Position numbers and translations under genes: made by a program. A DNA stretch of 64,000 bases from assembly GCF_016595235.1 (NCBI RefSeq), contig NZ_JAENHL010000006.1, forward strand, positions 558,001 through 622,000, read 5' to 3'. Below are positions 22,354 through 52,453 of the stretch, one piece after another (positions within the stretch are counted from its first letter, which is position 1; each line of letters begins with the position of its first letter). Source of the DNA: Taklimakanibacter albus (GTDB lineage: Bacteria > Pseudomonadota > Alphaproteobacteria > Rhizobiales > Aestuariivirgaceae). Under the pieces are notes generated by a model. The model made no database searches and was not told where the DNA came from. It was given only the letters and a program-made list of their open reading frames with translations.

Positions 22354-22665
22354 CTACCGTGGCTCAGTATCGCCTTTGTCCTTCTCCTGGACGGCGTAGC
22401 GCCAGGTTTCCCATTTGACCCGCGCGATCTTGTAGGCGTCGATGATGGACAGCGCATAGATGAAGAAGCCACCGGCATAGCGGCCGATGAAGCTCGCCTG
22501 ATCGGGGGCCACCTTCGAGGTCGCCCAGCCGATGATGATCATGAAAAACAGGAATTGCAGGCCGCGGGCGGGGACGCCCGAGAAGACGTGGCCCGAGCCC
22601 GGCAGCGCGATGGCGAGCGCCAGTATGGCATAAGGGTTGAGCGGCTTTTGCGGCGTATCGGTCAT
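22354..22665 (-). CDS. Small membrane protein, unknown function
   Basis: 103-residue protein with three hydrophobic segments (about 12-30, 35-55 and 62-82) and a charged C terminus. The ATG at 22665 is chosen because it overlaps the upstream gene's stop as ATGA. The N-terminal NPYAILALAIALPGSGHVFSG and the GLQFLFFMIIIGW block resemble small DUF6677-like or TM2-like membrane proteins, but I cannot assign a family. Translationally coupled to the gene at 22662-23348. Confidence 0.65.
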   Translation of the reverse strand: MTDTPQKPLNPYAILALAIALPGSGHVFSGVPARGLQFLFFMIIIGWATSKVAPDQASFIGRYAGGFFIYALSIIDAYKIARVKWETWRYAVQEKDKGDTEPR

Positions 22666-23348
22666 GATGGGCTGGACCATTCGAGGATGGATTTCCGGAG
22701 CGAGAGGAGATGGTCGAGCAGGTCGCGCACCAGATCGGGATCGAGCGTGACCTCACCGAATTCGGCCTGGCGGAAGACGCCATACCGCACGCGGTCGGCC
22801 TCGGCGAGCTGCCAGACGAGGCGGCAGCCCTTGGGCGTGATCAGGAGCTCCTTGGCCATGGGAGCCTGGAATATGCCGAGATGCGGGGCCACGACATGGT
22901 AGGGCAGCACATGCTCGGGGTCATCGGTGCGCACCACGGCATATAGCGGCAAGTCGGGCAGCCCTTCGAGCGTCACCGGCAAATGGTCGAAATTGGAGAA
23001 GGTCGTGGGGCCGGCCGCCCGCATCATGAGATCGAAGGTGGCGGTGAGCGGCAAGGGCTCGGCGATCGTCGCCAGCAGCCAGATCGAGGGCAGCTTGCGG
23101 ATGGCGAGCGTGTCGACCACCGGGTGGAGCCTGACCCCGTGGCCCTGATATTTGCCGACGAGCTGCGGATAGCCGGGGAGGCCTTCGCCTTCGTAGCGCG
23201 CGTCCGCGAGGAGGGGCTTTACTCTGGCGAAGAAATCGTCGGGCGCCTGGCGCTTCTTGCGCAGAGCCGCCATGAGCTTCAGCGCGAAGCGGATGGCGAG
23301 TCCGATCGCGGCGGCGATGCCCAGTATGGTGATGATGGTTTGCAGCAT
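22662..23348 (-). CDS. Membrane-anchored conserved protein, unknown function
   Basis: 228 residues: one N-terminal hydrophobic anchor (about 4-22) then a soluble domain of about 190 residues with no motif I recognise. It is rich in the pattern of a mixed alpha/beta domain (YQGHGVRLHPVVDTLAIRKLP, then PLTATFDLMMRAAGPTTFSNFD). Overlaps the next gene by 4 bp. It follows the permease gene by 57 bp, but a strong hairpin (23358-23382) sits between them, only 9 bp before its start codon, and no clear ribosome site is visible. Confidence 0.65.
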   Translation of the reverse strand: MLQTIITILGIAAAIGLAIRFALKLMAALRKKRQAPDDFFARVKPLLADARYEGEGLPGYPQLVGKYQGHGVRLHPVVDTLAIRKLPSIWLLATIAEPLPLTATFDLMMRAAGPTTFSNFDHLPVTLEGLPDLPLYAVVRTDDPEHVLPYHVVAPHLGIFQAPMAKELLITPKGCRLVWQLAEADRVRYGVFRQAEFGEVTLDPDLVRDLLDHLLSLRKSILEWSSPS

Positions 23349-23405: not shown

Positions 23406-24815
23406 TCAATAGCCTTTCGGCTTCGGCCAGGGCATCGTGAACTGGTCGCCGCGCCGCACATAGCGGTAGCGGTAGAAGTGGAACCAGATCGACACGATGA
23501 CGTAGAAGATCACCATCGCGATCAACTGCGAGCCATAGCCGAGGAAGATTGCGAAGAAGGTGATGGCGCAGAGAAGGAACAGGCAGATCGCCGGGATCGG
23601 GTGGAACGGATGGGTATATCCGCGCCGGATCGTGCCCAGCGGCCATTTGTTGCGGAACATCACGATGTTGATGCTCATGAAGGTGTATTGCAGCACGCCC
23701 GACAGGATCGAGAAGGTGATCGCCTGATTGATGTCGGCAATGAAGGCGAAGGCCAGCGCGATCGGCAGCAGGAAGAGAATGGACCTGTAAGGCGTCCGGT
23801 ATTTGGGATGGACCGCCGAGAACCAGGTCGGCAGATAGCGGTCACGGCCGAGCGAGAACCAGGCCCGGGCCGCATCGTTGATGCAGCCATTGGCCGAGGC
23901 CACGGCGGCGAGGATCGTTCCGACGAACAGCAGGAATTCGAGGAACGGACTTCCCGTCATCTTGGCCGCGTCCCACAGGGGATAGACCGTGATGCCGAGA
24001 TATTCCCATGGCAGGAGGCTCGCGCAGACATACCATGTCAGCGCCGCGGCGATCAGCAGTGTTATGATGCCGGCCATCGTGCCATAGGGCAAAGCGCGGG
24101 ACGGGGAGCGCACTTCCTCGGCCGCCTGTGTCGTGCCTTCGATGCCTAGATAGTACCAGATGGCAAATTGGAAGGCGGCGATGACGCCGATCCAGCCATA
24201 AGGCAGCGCGTTCTGCGGCGTCACCAGCTCATTGAGCTTGAGCACGACACCCTGGCTCCACGGCTGCACCGAAAAGAACAGGACGACGATGGCGACATAG
24301 GCTATCGCGGTGATGATGAAGTTCACATTGAGCGTCATCAGCACGCCGCGATAATTGAGCCACGCTAAGACCACGATGACGAGTGCGATGAAGCTGTCGC
24401 CATGGAAACCTTCCGTCGCCGCGAAGGCGACGATGGTGTCGCGTGCGAGGATCGCATCCGAGACTTCCAGCATCGTATAGGCGAAGACCAGGAAGAGGGC
24501 GACATTGAAGGCCATGAGGGGCCCGACAATGTGCTTGGCCTGGGCATATTGACCGCCGGCCGCAGCGACCGTCGAGGTCACCTCGGAATCGATCATGGCG
24601 ACGGAAGTGTAGAGAATACCTACGAACCAGCAGGTGATGAGGGCGGCAAGCGCGCCGCCCTTGTCGGCAGCGAAGTTCCAGCCAGTATATTCGCCGACGA
24701 GAACGATGCCGACGCCGAGCGCCCAGACATGGGCAGGACCGAGCACGCGCAGAAGCGATATGCGCTGTCCGTTGCCGGCGGCTTGGGTTGCGGTGGCTTG
24801 AGCTGCTTGTGACAT
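23406..24815 (-). CDS. APC superfamily permease (ethanolamine/amino-acid type)
   Basis: Inner-membrane transporter of 469 residues with about twelve spans. The start of helix 1, WALGVGIVLVGEYTGWNFA, resembles the unwound Gly-rich helix of ethanolamine/amino-acid permeases (GEY-GWN pattern), and a GGQYAQAK motif follows helix 2. The substrate is probably a small amine or amino acid, by family only. It is the last of four closely spaced genes; the other three encode tiny membrane proteins (24825-25678), with gaps of about 9-11 bp, so all four are very likely one operon and possibly one complex. Confidence 0.88.
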   Translation of the reverse strand: MSQAAQATATQAAGNGQRISLLRVLGPAHVWALGVGIVLVGEYTGWNFAADKGGALAALITCWFVGILYTSVAMIDSEVTSTVAAAGGQYAQAKHIVGPLMAFNVALFLVFAYTMLEVSDAILARDTIVAFAATEGFHGDSFIALVIVVLAWLNYRGVLMTLNVNFIITAIAYVAIVVLFFSVQPWSQGVVLKLNELVTPQNALPYGWIGVIAAFQFAIWYYLGIEGTTQAAEEVRSPSRALPYGTMAGIITLLIAAALTWYVCASLLPWEYLGITVYPLWDAAKMTGSPFLEFLLFVGTILAAVASANGCINDAARAWFSLGRDRYLPTWFSAVHPKYRTPYRSILFLLPIALAFAFIADINQAITFSILSGVLQYTFMSINIVMFRNKWPLGTIRRGYTHPFHPIPAICLFLLCAITFFAIFLGYGSQLIAMVIFYVIVSIWFHFYRYRYVRRGDQFTMPWPKPKGY

Positions 24816-24824
24816 GGCTGCCTC

Positions 24825-24986
24825 TCAAACCTTGTGCTTTTCGCTGACGGCTTCGATTTCCCCTTCGCGCGAGGAGGTCAATTGATCCTCGCTGTAGGTC
24901 GTATCCGTCTTGAACCAATCATAGAGCATCCACAGCGCAAGCGCGGCCGAGATAGCCCAGGCGATGTATGAGATTGTGAACCACAT
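24825..24986 (-). CDS. 53-residue single-span membrane protein, permease-associated
   Basis: Very short gene found by translating the gap between the permease and the 126-residue protein. It encodes MWFTISYIAWAISAALALW and continues through one membrane span (about 3-22) into a Glu/Asp/Ser-rich cytoplasmic-looking tail ending KHKV. The ATG is preceded by AGGAGCGCGCC, a good ribosome site, and the gene lies 9 bp from each neighbour. Its size, packing and one-span design suggest an accessory subunit of the permease. Unrecognised family. Confidence 0.7.
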   Translation of the reverse strand: MWFTISYIAWAISAALALWMLYDWFKTDTTYSEDQLTSSREGEIEAVSEKHKV

Positions 24987-24995
24987 GGCGCGCTC

Positions 24996-25376
24996 CTATT
25001 TCCCGTCGCCGAATTTTTCGGCGATCACTTCGCGGTATTCCTTGTCGGAGGCCCAGAAGAGAAAGACGTAGTAGCCGATGAGGACTGCCGCCATGAGGAC
25101 TAAGGTCAGCCAGTCGATATTGTAGTGGAAGCGGTTCTGGATGATGTCATGGGCGGTCGCCGGCGTGTAGCCGAGCTTCTCCCAGATCGACACCATGGTG
25201 GCGTTCTGGCCGAGCAATTCCCAGGTCGGGTTCTCGATCTTGTCGATCGCCTTGGCGGCGCCGGCGAGACCGAGTTGCAGCGGCAGCCACAAAGCGCCGA
25301 AGATCGCCAGGATCAGGAAGCCGACATCGACGAATTGCAGCGCCTTGTCTTGTTCGGGTGGTGTGTATTTTGCCAT
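24996..25376 (-). CDS. 126-residue membrane protein, permease-associated
   Basis: Two hydrophobic spans (about 16-38 and 89-108) separated by a polar segment of about 50 residues with NPTWELLGQNATMVSIWE, and a charged C terminus (EKFGDGK). Not a family I recognise. Second of three small genes before the permease; 11 bp after the 96-residue protein gene and 9 bp before the 53-residue one. Good GGGAGGG-type ribosome site (the upstream sequence reads AAGGGAGGGCAAA). Likely a transporter accessory protein, by position. Confidence 0.75.
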   Translation of the reverse strand: MAKYTPPEQDKALQFVDVGFLILAIFGALWLPLQLGLAGAAKAIDKIENPTWELLGQNATMVSIWEKLGYTPATAHDIIQNRFHYNIDWLTLVLMAAVLIGYYVFLFWASDKEYREVIAEKFGDGK

Positions 25377-25387
25377 TTTGCCCTCCC

Positions 25388-25678
25388 TTACATCCGGCCT
25401 TGCTTGCGCATGGCGTCGAGATGTTTGATGTCGAGGCCGTAGATGAACTCCTTGTCCTCGGCATAGTGCTTCACCATGGCCGCGATGGCGGCGGTGTTGA
25501 AGACGAGGATGGCGGCGGCGCCGATCAGCACGACGATGCGAATGGTTGCGTCAGGAATATGCGGCCAGGTCATGAACAGGACGAAGAGGATGGCGATCCA
25601 TAGGAGCGCTATGAGGAGCCAGGCACCGCGGCGATCGCTACGGTACATGGCCTCAATCCTCTGATTGAGGTCCGACAT
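25388..25678 (-). CDS. 96-residue membrane protein, first gene of the permease operon
   Basis: Two adjacent hydrophobic spans (about 18-37 and 45-67), an N-terminal charged segment (SDLNQRIEAMYRSDRRG) and a charged C-terminal tail (KHYAEDKEFIYGLDIKHLDAM). Family not recognised. It heads the four-gene cluster and has a GGAAGG ribosome site. A 7-bp dyad at 25758-25777 about 80 bp upstream may be an operator. Confidence 0.75.
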   Translation of the reverse strand: MSDLNQRIEAMYRSDRRGAWLLIALLWIAILFVLFMTWPHIPDATIRIVVLIGAAAILVFNTAAIAAMVKHYAEDKEFIYGLDIKHLDAMRKQGRM

Positions 25679-25988
25679 TTTTGTTTCCTTCCCATCGGGC
25701 GCTGCGTTTTCCCCGCAAGCCGCGCCGCCCCTTGTTAAGTTGCTTACGGGGCAATTTTATTTTCTCACAGGAAAATACGGCCCGGGGCCAAAGTCAAGAC
25801 GGGAGAGGAGCTTTCCCACCACGTCCTGCGGTTGCGGCATTGCACAATACCGGCCGGGCAGAGTTCAAAAACAAGCAATTCCAATGGTTTGAAGCTGAAC
25901 GGCAGATAAACGCGGCTCTCAGGCTCCATACAGGGGCAAAGGCGCATCCTCTGGCGACAATCACCACTCGCTCAGAGGAATCGTGCTT
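25679..25988. other. Intergenic region between the permease operon and an orphan small gene
   Basis: About 310 bp. Contains the presumed minus-strand promoter of the permease operon, with a TTGACT on the minus strand (within GTCAAG at 25793-25798 region) and an AT-rich stretch, but no well-spaced -10 could be fixed. The dyad at 25758-25777 is described separately. The half nearest 25989 shows nothing distinctive apart from the AGAGGAA ribosome site of the next gene. Confidence 0.5.
25758..25777. promoter_or_regulatory. Candidate operator of the permease operon
   Basis: Perfect inverted repeat TATTTTC-TCACAG-GAAAATA, arms of 7 bp with a 6-bp centre, in the promoter-proximal DNA of the permease operon. 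Size and symmetry suit a dimeric repressor, but no regulator gene is adjacent and the cognate protein is unknown. Confidence 0.3.
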
Positions 25989-26240
25989 ATGACTCGCCTT
26001 TTCGCCCGCAAGAATCTCCAGGTCACCCTTGGCCTCCTCGTGGCCATCGGCATTGCGGCGACCCGCACCGAGAAGCTTTTCGTCGAGATGCAGGCGAGCC
26101 TTCCGCATGAGACGGAGCGCATGATTTCGAGCCTCGGTCACAATCTGCCGGAGCCCTTCGACCCGGCCCGCGTGCCGCAGTCGGGCGGCATGGCCTCGCG
26201 CCTTCTCGCCGGCATCGGCGTGAATATCGTCAGGATCTGA
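25989..26240 (+). CDS. Orphan 83-residue protein
   Basis: Unrecognised small protein with one probable membrane span or signal anchor (about 10-27, LQVTLGLLVAIGIAATR) and a polar C-terminal part (HNLPEPFDPARVPQSGG). The ATG at 25989 has AGAGGAA 8-10 bp upstream, while the in-frame GTG 6 bp earlier would be too close to it. The C terminus overlaps the convergent ABC permease gene by 11 bp. Coding is supported by the ribosome site and composition, not by a known family. Confidence 0.55.
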   Translation: MTRLFARKNLQVTLGLLVAIGIAATRTEKLFVEMQASLPHETERMISSLGHNLPEPFDPARVPQSGGMASRLLAGIGVNIVRI

Positions 26241-27384
26241 GAGCCGCCACCGCCGGCTGGCGATAGGCGAGCGAAGCGGGGATGGCGGCGATCGCCGCCG
26301 CGGCGACCAGGAGCAGTAAAGCGAGCCCCAGGTCGCCGCCCTGGAACTCGACCGGCAGGACGACACCGTTCTGCCGGGTCAACTGGTCGGAGATGAGGCG
26401 CACCGCGGCCCAACCCACCAGGAAGCCGAGCCCGATGCCGGTTCCCATCAAGGCCAGAAGCTCGATCCACACGATGCCGAAGACGGCGCTCCTGGGCGCC
26501 CCGAAGGCGCGCAGCGCGCCGATCTGGCGGCGCCGTTGCGCCACATGGGCGATGGCGATGAGGGCGATGGCCGCGGCGACGAGCGCCTGCGCGGCGAGGG
26601 CGATGATGCTCATCACCTGGCGCGCATCGCCGAGCGTCGCATAGAGCCTGGTCAGCACTTCGCCGGGAAACACCGCCACGGTCTGATCACCGCGATATTC
26701 ACCGCGGAGCTTATAGGCGTCGGCGATCGTTTTCGGTTTGACCAGGATGGCCGGCACGCCGGGCGGTTTTTCTTCCGCGTGAAGCCCATGGATCTCCCAC
26801 ACCGCCTCGATCGGCACGATGATGGCGCGGTCCCAGGCGGTGCCGGTTGGCATGAGCCGGCCCACGACCTGATAGGTGAACTCGGTATGGACATGACCGG
26901 CATCGCCCGCCGCGCCATGCATCGGCTCGAAGGACTGGCCGATCGTCAGATCCACGGCGCTGCCGATGACGGCGTCATGTTCGCCGGCCGGCGTGCCGCC
27001 TTCGGGGGCCGCGCCATTGTTCAAGGCGTTGATCAGATCAGGCGTCGAGCCGACGACCGGATAGGTCTTGAAGGAATCGCCGAAGCCGATCGGCGCCGCG
27101 AAGGTGACGCGGGGATCCTGTTTGAGCTTCGGCAGGACGTCGCCGGGAAGCAGCGGCAAGGGCGCCGGCTGCAGGAAGACGGAAGAAAGCACGAGCTGCG
27201 TCTCGCTGCCGGCGGCGCCGATGACGAGATCGAACTTGTCGGCGGCCCGGGCGCTGCCGAGGCGGAGCGCGCGTTCCTGCAGTGTGATGCCGACGCCGAG
27301 CGCCGAGGCGAGCGCCACCAGGAGGATGATGACGAGGGAGGCCGCCCACAGGCGTTTGAGATCGGCGAGGATGAAGCGGATCAT
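26230..27384 (-). CDS. ABC transporter permease, FtsX/MacB type
   Basis: 384 residues: one N-terminal span (about 14-34), a periplasmic domain of about 210 residues, then three C-terminal spans, the layout of FtsX/MacB-type permeases that do not move substrate through a classical channel but work by mechanotransmission. It overlaps the ATPase gene by 4 bp. With the DUF3299-like gene it resembles P. aeruginosa PA4064-PA4066, a Zur-controlled operon, so a link to zinc is possible; the DUF2796 partner seen there is absent here. Confidence 0.85.
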   Translation of the reverse strand: MIRFILADLKRLWAASLVIILLVALASALGVGITLQERALRLGSARAADKFDLVIGAAGSETQLVLSSVFLQPAPLPLLPGDVLPKLKQDPRVTFAAPIGFGDSFKTYPVVGSTPDLINALNNGAAPEGGTPAGEHDAVIGSAVDLTIGQSFEPMHGAAGDAGHVHTEFTYQVVGRLMPTGTAWDRAIIVPIEAVWEIHGLHAEEKPPGVPAILVKPKTIADAYKLRGEYRGDQTVAVFPGEVLTRLYATLGDARQVMSIIALAAQALVAAAIALIAIAHVAQRRRQIGALRAFGAPRSAVFGIVWIELLALMGTGIGLGFLVGWAAVRLISDQLTRQNGVVLPVEFQGGDLGLALLLLVAAAAIAAIPASLAYRQPAVAALRS

Positions 27385-28067
27385 GCCGCGAGCCCGGCAA
27401 AGGCCGCGTTGGCAAGGCGTCCGGCGCTGAGCGCCAGGCTGCGGTCCATGCGTTTGATGAGCCGCTCGTCATGCGACACGGCGATCAGGGTGGCGCCGCT
27501 TTCGCGCGCCAGCGACAGGAGCAGCTCCGCGACCTCGGCGCCATGGCCAGGATCGAGGCTCGCCGTCGGCTCATCGGCGATGAGCACTTTTGGCCGGCGC
27601 AGCAAGGCGCGCGCCACCGCGACACGCTGCATCTCGCCCCGCGACAGGGTGGCGGTCGACTGATTGGCGCGTTTGATGCCCACCCGTGCGAGCAGCGCAT
27701 GGGCGTGATCGACGGTGTCGCGGCCGGCGGCGCGGCGCAGGCGTGCCGGCAGCAGCACATTGTCGAGCGCGGACAGGCCTTCGAAGAGATGGAAATCCTG
27801 CATCACGAGACCGACCGTCTCGGCGCGCCAGCGATCCCGCCGGGCTTCGGGAAGCGCCGCGATATCTTCCGCGCCCCACAACACGCGGCCCTGATCGGGC
27901 CGCGCCAGGCCGGTGATGATGTTGACGAGCGTCGTCTTGCCGGAGCCCGACGGGCCGGTGACGGCGACGCATTCCTCGGCCGCGATGGCGAGGCTGCGAA
28001 TATCGAGCACGGGCGTTTCGAGTCCTGGATAGGACACCCGCACCTGGTCGAGGGTCAGCGCCAGCAT
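27381..28067 (-). CDS. ABC transporter ATP-binding protein, MacB/LolD-like
   Basis: ATPase of 228 residues. Walker A GPSGSGKTTLV, Q-loop MQDFHLF, signature LSRGEMQRVAVARALL, Walker B VLIADEPTASLD and switch His in AVSHDE. Start placed at the ATG giving MLALTLDQVRVSYPG, just after the stop of the upstream gene; upstream residues lack family resemblance. Overlaps its permease partner by 4 bp. Confidence 0.93.
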   Translation of the reverse strand: MLALTLDQVRVSYPGLETPVLDIRSLAIAAEECVAVTGPSGSGKTTLVNIITGLARPDQGRVLWGAEDIAALPEARRDRWRAETVGLVMQDFHLFEGLSALDNVLLPARLRRAAGRDTVDHAHALLARVGIKRANQSTATLSRGEMQRVAVARALLRRPKVLIADEPTASLDPGHGAEVAELLLSLARESGATLIAVSHDERLIKRMDRSLALSAGRLANAAFAGLAA

Positions 28068-28072
28068 CGCGC

Positions 28073-28513
28073 TCAGGCCAAACCGAATTGCGCGTGGCGC
28101 AGGCGTAAGAGGCTCACGAAGCCGGTCTCGGGATCGGTCCACGAGCCGTATTCGAGCGTGCCTTCTACATCGATCGGCGCATTGGCCTGCACGAAGGTCT
28201 GCTTCTCGTCGAGATAGACGACGACGATATTGTCCGGCCAGTCGGCATCCGACGAGCAGAAGGGGCAGAGCGCCATCGGGATTTCGGTGAACACGAAGAA
28301 CTTCGCCTCCGCCTTGAGGGGAGGGGCCATGAAGCCGCGCATGGTGACGTTGGCGCCCGAGAGCGCCTTCACCTTCTCGGTGAATTTGAGCCCGAGCACG
28401 CTCTGCGCCTCATAGAGCTCATCGAAAGCGAGCTGCGTCGCGGCGCGGGCGGGCGAGTGAAACGCTACGAACGCAATGAGGCCAAGAAAGCCGCGCCGAC
28501 TGAACGACTTCAT
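28073..28513 (-). CDS. DUF3299-like exported protein
   Basis: 146 residues with a twin-arginine-like signal (KSFSRRGFLGLIAF, cleavage after SPARA). The domain matches the DUF3299 pattern: MRGFMAPPL, a strand ending FFVFTEIP, the CPFC pair (two Cys separated by two residues), IVVVY, PIDVEGTL and a closing DPETGFVSLLRL. Proteins of this type sit beside MacB-like ABC genes in Zur-regulated loci. The start at 28513 is chosen because the upstream in-frame DNA is an intergenic repeat. The Cys pair could bind metal; not shown. Confidence 0.8.
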   Translation of the reverse strand: MKSFSRRGFLGLIAFVAFHSPARAATQLAFDELYEAQSVLGLKFTEKVKALSGANVTMRGFMAPPLKAEAKFFVFTEIPMALCPFCSSDADWPDNIVVVYLDEKQTFVQANAPIDVEGTLEYGSWTDPETGFVSLLRLRHAQFGLA

Positions 28514-51034: not shown

Positions 51035-52453
51035 TCAGCAGCTGTAGTACATGTCGAATTCAACGGGATGCGGCATCATCTCGTAGCGCATGTTCTCTTC
51101 CATCTTGAGCTCGATGAAGCTGTCGATCTGATCGTCGGTGAAGACGCCGCCCTTCTTCAGGAACTCGCGGTCCTTGTCGAGCGAGGTGAGCGCCTCGCGC
51201 AGCGACCCGCACACCGTCGGGATGCCTTTCAGTTCGGCCGGCGGCAGATCATACAGGTTCTTGTCCATGGCGTCGCCCGGATGGATCTTGTTCACCACGC
51301 CATCGAGGCCGGCCATGATGAGCGCCGAGAAGCCGAGATAGGGATTGGCCGTCGGATCGGGGAAACGCACTTCGACGCGCTTGGCCTTGGGGTTCGATGT
51401 GTGCGGAATGCGGCACGACGCCGAGCGGTTGCGCGAGGAATAAGCGAGCAGCACCGGCGCCTCGTAGCCCGGCACCAGACGCTTATAGGAGTTGGTCGAC
51501 GGGTTGGTGAAGGCGTTGCAGGCCTTGGCGTGCTTGATGACGCCGCCGATGAAATAAAGGCACAGCTCCGAGAGGTCGGCATACTGGTTGCCGGCCATCT
51601 GGGTTTTGCCGTCCTTCCAGATCGAGAAGTGGCAATGCATGCCCGAGCCGTTGTCGCCGAAGACCGGCTTCGGCATGAAGGTGGCCGTCTTGCCATAGGC
51701 ATGCGCCACATTGTGGATCACATATTTGTAGATCTGCATGTGGTCGGCGGCGGTGACGAGCGTCTGGAACTTGGTGCCGAGCTCATGCTGGGCGGCCGCC
51801 ACTTCGTGATGGTGCTTCTCGACGGAGAGGCCCATCTGGCCCATCACCGAAAGCATCTCGGAGCGCATGTCCTGCGCCGAGTCCATCGGGTTCATCGGGA
51901 AATAACCGCCCTTGGTGCGCATGCGATGACCGAGATTGCCGGTCTCATATTCACGGTCGGTGTTGGTCGGCAGTTCGATCGAGTCGAGCTTGAAGCCGGT
52001 ATTGTAGGGCGATGACGAGAAACGCACGTCGTCGAAGATGAAGAATTCGGCTTCGGGACCGACATAGACCGTGTCGCCGAGCTTCGTCTGCTTGAGATAA
52101 GCCTCGGTGCGCTTGGCGATCATGCGCGGGTCGCGCGAATAGCCTTCGCCGGTCGACGGCTCGAGAATGTCGCAGAACACCGCGAGCGTCGTCTGGGCAT
52201 AGAAGGGGTCCATATGCGCGGTGGACGGATCCGGCATGAGCACCATGTCGGATTCATTGATCGCCTTCCAGCCGGCGATCGAGGAGCCGTCGAACATCAG
52301 CCCCTCGGCGAACGCTTCTTCATGCATCTGCGACACGTCCATCGTCAGATGCTGCATCTTGCCGCGCGGATCGGTGAAGCGGAGATCGACGAATTTCACG
52401 TCCTTGTCCTTGAGAAGCTTCATTACCGCTTCGGCGTCTTTCGGCTTAGCCAT
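51035..52453 (-). CDS. glnA: Glutamine synthetase type I
   Basis: Dodecameric GS-I, the main ammonia-assimilating enzyme, 472 residues. Motifs: FDGSSIAGW latch, [52 protein letters not shown] and, for adenylylation, NLYDLPP with the modified Tyr. Regulated by GlnE through PII; the glnB gene is just upstream in the same operon (49 bp gap). Confidence 0.98.

Follow-up and report, generated by a model that had tools for sequence, protein, structure and literature searches.

A conserved six-gene cassette around an APC permease: a candidate multi-subunit methylammonium importer

The eukaryotic heteromeric amino acid transporters (SLC7 light chain plus SLC3 heavy chain) contain an APC permease that needs a partner polypeptide, a single type II protein with a large extracellular glycosidase-like domain that is joined by an interchain disulphide. 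Secondary transporters with small membrane subunits are represented by the SSS symporters with a DUF485 or DUF4212 partner and by the TRAP transporters with DctQM. According to the accessible part of a study on the mycobacterial transporter MmpL3, the protein TtfA interacts physically with MmpL3, is needed for its work and has a C-terminal domain that faces the cytoplasm (PMC6593404). Methylamine commonly serves as a source of carbon and nitrogen in soil and sea, and the enzymes that degrade it have been well studied, whereas the transporters named for methylamine itself were of the Amt type only in the portions of the open-access literature examined. A gmas-mgsABC-amt operon is given for Pseudomonas C5pp in the accessible part of PMC8292978, where the glutamate-synthase- and sarcosine-oxidase-like genes around gmaS are assigned to the N-methylglutamate (NMG) pathway. 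As far as the accessible parts go, amino-acid permeases respond to methylamine in Methyloversatilis (PMC5023235), and dimethylamine or metformin increases most of the coding sequences in the methylamine cluster carried by plasmid paAMD1 (PMC9699525).

The window, i.e. the whole stretch of 64,000 nucleotides analysed (Taklimakanibacter albus, contig NZ_JAENHL010000006.1, positions 558,001 to 622,000), contains a cassette of six minus-strand open reading frames in the order A-B-C-P-D-E. Based on the reading frames and hydropathy, A (25388..25678) encodes a 96-aa two-span protein, B (24996..25376) a 126-aa two-span protein with a loop of ~50 aa and C (24825..24986) a 53-aa one-span protein. P (23406..24815) encodes a 469-aa APC permease, as assigned by Pfam. 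It is followed by D (22662..23348), encoding a 228-aa protein with one N-terminal span and, by structure prediction, a domain of TtfA-like fold, and by E (22354..22680), encoding a 108-aa membrane protein with weak profile matches to DUF6677/DUF5683. The A-B, B-C and C-P gaps measure 11, 9 and 9 bp, the P-D gap 57 bp, and the ends of D and E overlap. A preliminary description of this DNA had reported four packed genes, A, B, C and P, with two, two and one spans in the small proteins; coordinates, gaps and span numbers were all reproduced, and the unit itself had to be extended, since its conserved form has six genes and includes D and E downstream. Compared with the nearest relative (locus L036), A, B and C differed mostly at third codon positions (differences at the first/second/third position: A 5/1/8, B 9/3/22, C 3/0/9), which, like their conservation next to P in other lineages, marks them as more than chance reading frames. 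Upstream of the cassette, and transcribed in its direction, lie genes for an FtsX-like permease and a LolD-like ATPase (26230-28142), which were not seen in the conserved unit.

P scored 105.3 bits against Pfam AA_permease (cut-off 24.6), in agreement with its earlier designation as an APC permease, and 97.5 bits against AA_permease_2 (cut-off 27); both values exceed the gathering score and place it in the APC superfamily. The best NCBIfam match was the ethanolamine permease TIGR00908, and the nearest solved relative in the sequence profile alignment was GkApcT (5oqt/6f34). P aligns with both over nearly its whole length, but differs from TIGR00908 in its score (170 bits, below the cut-off of 381.75) and in being accompanied by A-E. 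The TM1 motif of P, G(E/D)xxGWN, is common to ethanolamine-permease-like proteins and was found, whole or in part, in two further permeases of this type that lie outside the cassette in the same genome. The TM1 site would fit an amine rather than an amino acid. Its acidic position, E42, was E in 25 of 26 cases and D in one, and was discarded as a cassette-specific cation site because it is also present in a non-cassette permease of the same genome.

The profile of P matched GkApcT as well as SLC7 transporters, in which respect the cassette resembles the heteromeric amino acid transporters. It differs from these in having five smaller partners, of which D would face the cytoplasm; none of them resembles a heavy chain, as A-E comprise at most 228 residues and the predicted fold of D is TtfA-like. 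With the SSS and TRAP systems the cassette shares small membrane proteins next to a secondary transporter, but P belongs to a different permease family. Searches with the window's A, B and C at a limit of E 1 returned none of the small-subunit families of SSS and TRAP, and these were likewise absent from the families displayed for aligned relatives of A-C (for A, 25 of 27 families were displayed).

None of the window's A-E reached a Pfam family at the cut-off, and A, B and C had no NCBIfam family above cut-off; sub-threshold Pfam matches of A-C were treated as chance. Conserved positions in the C-terminal tail of A are H, D, IYG and D (in the window, HYxEDKxxIYGxDxxxLD), B carries the motifs PPxQ, W..L.Q and EYxxVIxExF, and C the motif LxSSxEG. 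The AF2 model of B comprised two long helices and a small structured loop (pLDDT 80, pTM 0.47), and its Foldseek search returned no match below E 2.2. When profiles were compared with PDB sequences at E 1, none was matched by A, D or E, and B gave two matches only (E 0.77 and 0.88). E was weakly similar to DUF6677, with 22 of 29 members matching at E 0.1 (best 3.7e-4).

The predicted structure of D (pLDDT 91, pTM 0.83) starts with a long helix, followed by a mixed domain. Its best solved match was TtfA (PDB 6t84; Foldseek E 2.9e-4; VIA Z 11.2 over 154 residues, rmsd 3.5). Next came three chains of ribosome-translocon structures (Z 10.9, 9.5 and 9.4), which we take to be CCDC47 or its relatives, and then matches from Z 7.2. 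D is thus predicted to combine an N-terminal span with a TtfA-like domain, the arrangement also seen in TtfA. This likeness was undetected at the sequence level, the D profile matching no PDB chain at E 1, and likeness of fold says nothing on function by itself. TtfA is an accessory to a transporter, as described in the accessible part of PMC6593404; its partner is an RND lipid exporter, unlike the APC permease P.

The constancy of the cassette was assessed in 87 loci (61 from the genome contigs, seven from plasmids and 19 of 20 fetched separately), which are mostly from Mesorhizobium and hence non-independent. All six genes were strictly ordered on one strand with gaps below 400 bp in 76 of them. 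Among the 11 exceptions, L037, L066, L074 and L076 are cut off by contig ends, L140 and L143 each lacked one gene in the extraction that was nevertheless found by tblastn, P and D are farther apart in L149, L157 and L153 (447, 499 and 1496 bp, the last due to a second permease), and L144 is an incomplete second copy. In the remaining one, L131 of S. meliloti Ak57, the extracted frames overran the ends of B and C, and tblastn placed both genes; this overrun (L131:11995-13527) may reflect sequencing error, decay or an extraction artefact. The second permease of L153 (L153:9878-12763) is a tandem duplicate inside the cassette, and its second copy (genome G124) showed one stop. In L099-L106 (family f89, another order), B has 159-160 aa, with an insertion of ~30 residues after the first span. 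The order is kept in eight families of the order, in another order, in another class and in named Alpha- and Betaproteobacteria. Annotated plasmids of Paracoccus, Pseudohalocynthiibacter and Aminobacter show the same row (three small hypothetical genes, the permease and two hypothetical genes), as does S. meliloti Ak57, where B and C are unannotated. The expectation that C is prone to be missed by annotation held for the latter strain and failed in five records, which list it as 'hypothetical protein'.

B was present in 30 of the 199 genomes of the order and in 61 genome-contig loci, mostly of Mesorhizobium. With P as a query, 29 genomes of the order had a permease with at least 59% identity, and all other APC matches stayed at or below 29%, save one fragment of 32 residues (72% identity) that adjoins the listed permease of G074. 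This fragment (G074:C11:232433-232531) corresponds to the N-terminal part of a cassette permease and forms a short match of its own next to the main match, perhaps owing to a frameshift. All 29 genomes carry B, and the thirtieth B (G004) stops 132 bp short of a contig end. Identical sets for B and P were also obtained in the phylum set (14 of 398 genomes; P threshold E 1e-60) and in the full lists from the plasmid collection (22 accessions among 72,556 records). In the class set, B occurred in six of 385 genomes, and A, C and P adjoin it in the loci returned. The preliminary description had made its proposal depend on the small genes being conserved next to related permeases, and such conservation was found. 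This reciprocal co-occurrence of P and B supports a constant multi-component system, and the gene partnership of A-B-C-P-D-E is real. Across 25 hand-chosen diverse loci, the median pairwise identity was 69% for P, 49% for B, 47% for E, 45% for C, 43% for A and 33% for D; the partner identities track those of P (r 0.56-0.75), as co-inherited genes are expected to do.

On balance, these sequence comparisons favour the reading that A-B-C-P-D-E form one multi-subunit APC-type secondary importer of methylammonium, perhaps also of dimethylammonium. P, from the ethanolamine-permease-like branch of the APC superfamily, would form the pathway, surrounded by A, B and C as small membrane subunits, with the loop of B on the extracytoplasmic side and the conserved tails of A and C in the cytoplasm. 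D, with its N-terminal anchor and TtfA-like cytoplasmic domain, and the small membrane protein E would complete or regulate the assembly. The complex would bring in protonated monomethylamine, perhaps dimethylamine too, and the imported amine would feed the cytoplasmic NMG pathway (GmaS, MgsABC, MgdABCD). We infer that the proteins form a physical complex, and we likewise infer its direction of transport, its substrate and coupling ion, its topology and the subunit roles. The undescribed multi-subunit complex envisaged in the preliminary description is upheld in so far as the gene partnership is constant; an APC permease with a second polypeptide, by contrast, has a eukaryotic precedent.

The choice of substrate rests on gene context, and the link to methylamine was absent from the preliminary description. 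The cassette has NMG or dmm-like genes as neighbours in P. aminophilus, S. meliloti and Aminobacter, and it is located on plasmid paAMD1. In both P. aminophilus and S. meliloti it adjoins glnT, three glutamate-synthase-like genes and sarcosine-oxidase-like genes, which were read as gmaS, mgsABC and mgdABCD, respectively; reading the latter two sets, around gmaS, as the NMG pathway follows PMC8292978. Further neighbours in S. meliloti were read from domain names as dmmDABC, an identity that we presume. With S. meliloti GmaS as a query, a match to this gamma-glutamylmethylamide synthetase of at least 59% was found in 72 of the 199 genomes of the order, i.e. in 29 of the 30 cassette genomes, the exception being G004, as against 43 of the 169 others (Fisher p 4e-14, uncorrected for phylogeny). 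Among the matches at 59-68% there may be type III glutamine synthetases with a different role, but several of this group adjoin mgs genes (L145, L146, L147, L156 and L159). A glutamine synthetase-like gene in the window (51035-52453) was rejected as a second GmaS, being a type I GlnA (668 bits, cut-off 429). Carriage of the pathway does not depend on the cassette, since 43 genomes with GmaS lack B.

GmaS lies within 10 kb of P in 18 of the 30 cassette genomes of the order; in the other 12 it lies more than 10 kb off, on another contig or, in G004, was not found at 59%. In addition, 20-kb stretches were inspected for 18 first-copy loci, hand-chosen from both the near and the far group. NMG genes were located within 20 kb in ten of these and dmm-like plus TmoP-like genes, with no NMG gene in the stretch, in three (L150, L151 and L152), giving 13 loci with NMG or dmm-like genes; L157 had distant matches only to such genes in its stretch, and in L148, L149, L153 and L154 neither NMG nor dmm genes were close. 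Among the seven plasmid loci, L126, L127, L131 and L160 contain NMG genes, the Paraburkholderia locus L130 contains DmmD-like (GcvT) and TmoP-like genes, and L128 and L129 have neither an NMG nor a dmm gene close by in the fetched stretch. The case against a methylamine importer includes the 12 genomes without GmaS within 10 kb, the loci with no close NMG or dmm gene in the fetched stretch and the window's own genome, whose NMG cluster lies on contig C7 (L158) and whose cassette lies on C6. A less likely but serious alternative is that the same complex has another main substrate, such as dimethylamine or another small amine, or acts as an exporter in methylated-amine metabolism. The dmm-like loci L150, L151 and L152, the Paraburkholderia plasmid and the loci without a close methylamine gene (L148, L153, L154, L128 and L129) point in this direction, but the fetched stretches of L140, L141, L142, L143, L147, L155, L156 and L159 contain NMG genes and no dmm-like ones, and both the GmaS-like gene in nearly all cassette genomes and the mau-linked copy described below argue for methylamine.

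The amt gene of Pseudomonas C5pp is, like the cassette, a transporter gene in a methylamine cluster, but belongs to the Amt family. An Amt gene was found within 10 kb of gmaS in six of the 43 GmaS genomes without the cassette, in three of 11 with the cassette far from gmaS and in none of the 18 with the cassette near. The resulting comparison (9/54 vs 0/18, Fisher p 0.10) is insufficient to count as evidence for replacement of Amt beside gmaS; the distribution agrees with the cassette taking the place of Amt, without proving so.

G031 contains a diverged second set, A2, P2 and B2 (L144:5382-18336), that is split around mauB, mauE and mauA, all three above the Pfam cut-off. P2 shows 58-59% identity and lies next to the genes of a two-component system (histidine kinase and response regulator); no C, D or E belonging to this copy was detected. 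The mau cluster further comprises a MauJ-like gene (below cut-off) and a reading frame with two CxxCH motifs, which is probably MauG-like. This arrangement links the family, in one genome, to a second, unrelated route of methylamine oxidation; that it occurs in one genome only weighs against the methylamine-importer reading. Since methylamine dehydrogenase is periplasmic, as stated in the accessible part of PMC5023228, the mau-linked copy would need no importer for catabolism and could serve nitrogen uptake or sensing. The regulatory genes next to P2 suit an improbable alternative in which P acts alone, with A-E as separate assembly, stability or regulatory factors, or in which P senses methylamine rather than supplying it. 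The resemblance of D to TtfA fits as well, since accessory proteins can act transiently. The identical phyletic pattern of P and B and the tight A-B-C-P spacing across lineages speak instead for constant partners, not general factors.

It is very improbable that A-E belong with the NMG enzymes, for instance to anchor MgdABCD in the membrane or to accept its electrons, and that P merely shares their operon. The frequent proximity of the cassette to mgs, gmaS and mgd genes and a sub-threshold FixQ-like tail of B (5 of 23 members, best E 0.0039) accord with such a role, but P and B were not seen apart in any set, 12 of 30 genomes have no gmaS within 10 kb, and B is missing from 43 of the 72 GmaS-bearing ones. 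A chance operon of unrelated membrane genes can practically be dismissed, being contradicted, as far as sequence allows, by the wide taxonomic range over which the order is kept.

Upstream of A, the perfect dyad already noted at 25758..25777, a possible operator with the sequence TATTTTC-N6-GAAAATA, was recovered exactly, 80-99 bp from the start codon. Among relatives it was exact in L036, had one mismatch in L066 and was represented elsewhere by looser matches only. The whole genome contained no other copy with fewer than two mismatches and, at up to two mismatches, five sites in total compared to four in the reversed control. The dyad was therefore rejected as evidence of a shared operator, being kept only in the closest relatives and near control in its genome count. 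A looser motif, TTTCCTGCAGGAAA, was found with up to four mismatches in 22 of 43 regions upstream of A, as against ~2.5 expected from shuffles; its consensus was derived from the same, related sequences, and three consensus forms were tried. In a two-half-site scan of 26 whole sequences, most lacked a clear excess, and the motif was left out of the argument. A gene for an XRE-family regulator lies divergent to A in L131, L141, L147 and L155, and an XRE-type regulator gene is also present within the NMG cluster of the window's genome. An XRE-type protein appears to be the likeliest regulator of the cassette, and probably controls both the cassette and the NMG genes.

In the open-access literature, with subscription papers mostly uncovered, no report was found of A-E or of any APC transporter in bacteria that has subunits dedicated to it; A-E are undescribed in the accessible parts of PMC4543880, PMC5023235, PMC5520151, PMC13390433, PMC9800807, PMC9699525, PMC8292978, PMC5023228, PMC8235418 and PMC6593404. 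We tentatively advance, with slightly less confidence than the importer function as such, the broader proposal that the cassette encodes an APC transporter of six components, which would be the first from bacteria to have its own subunits, that D equips this nutrient importer with a cytoplasmic domain of TtfA-like fold, and that the transporter is the missing methylammonium importer of many bacteria with the NMG pathway. If the cassette is an importer, five nameless protein families would gain a function, the APC transporters would have a multi-subunit representative in bacteria, and the fold shared with TtfA would be a recurring accessory of unrelated transporters. The carriers of the cassette are soil and plant-associated bacteria, which may thus possess an overlooked multi-part importer for methylamine.
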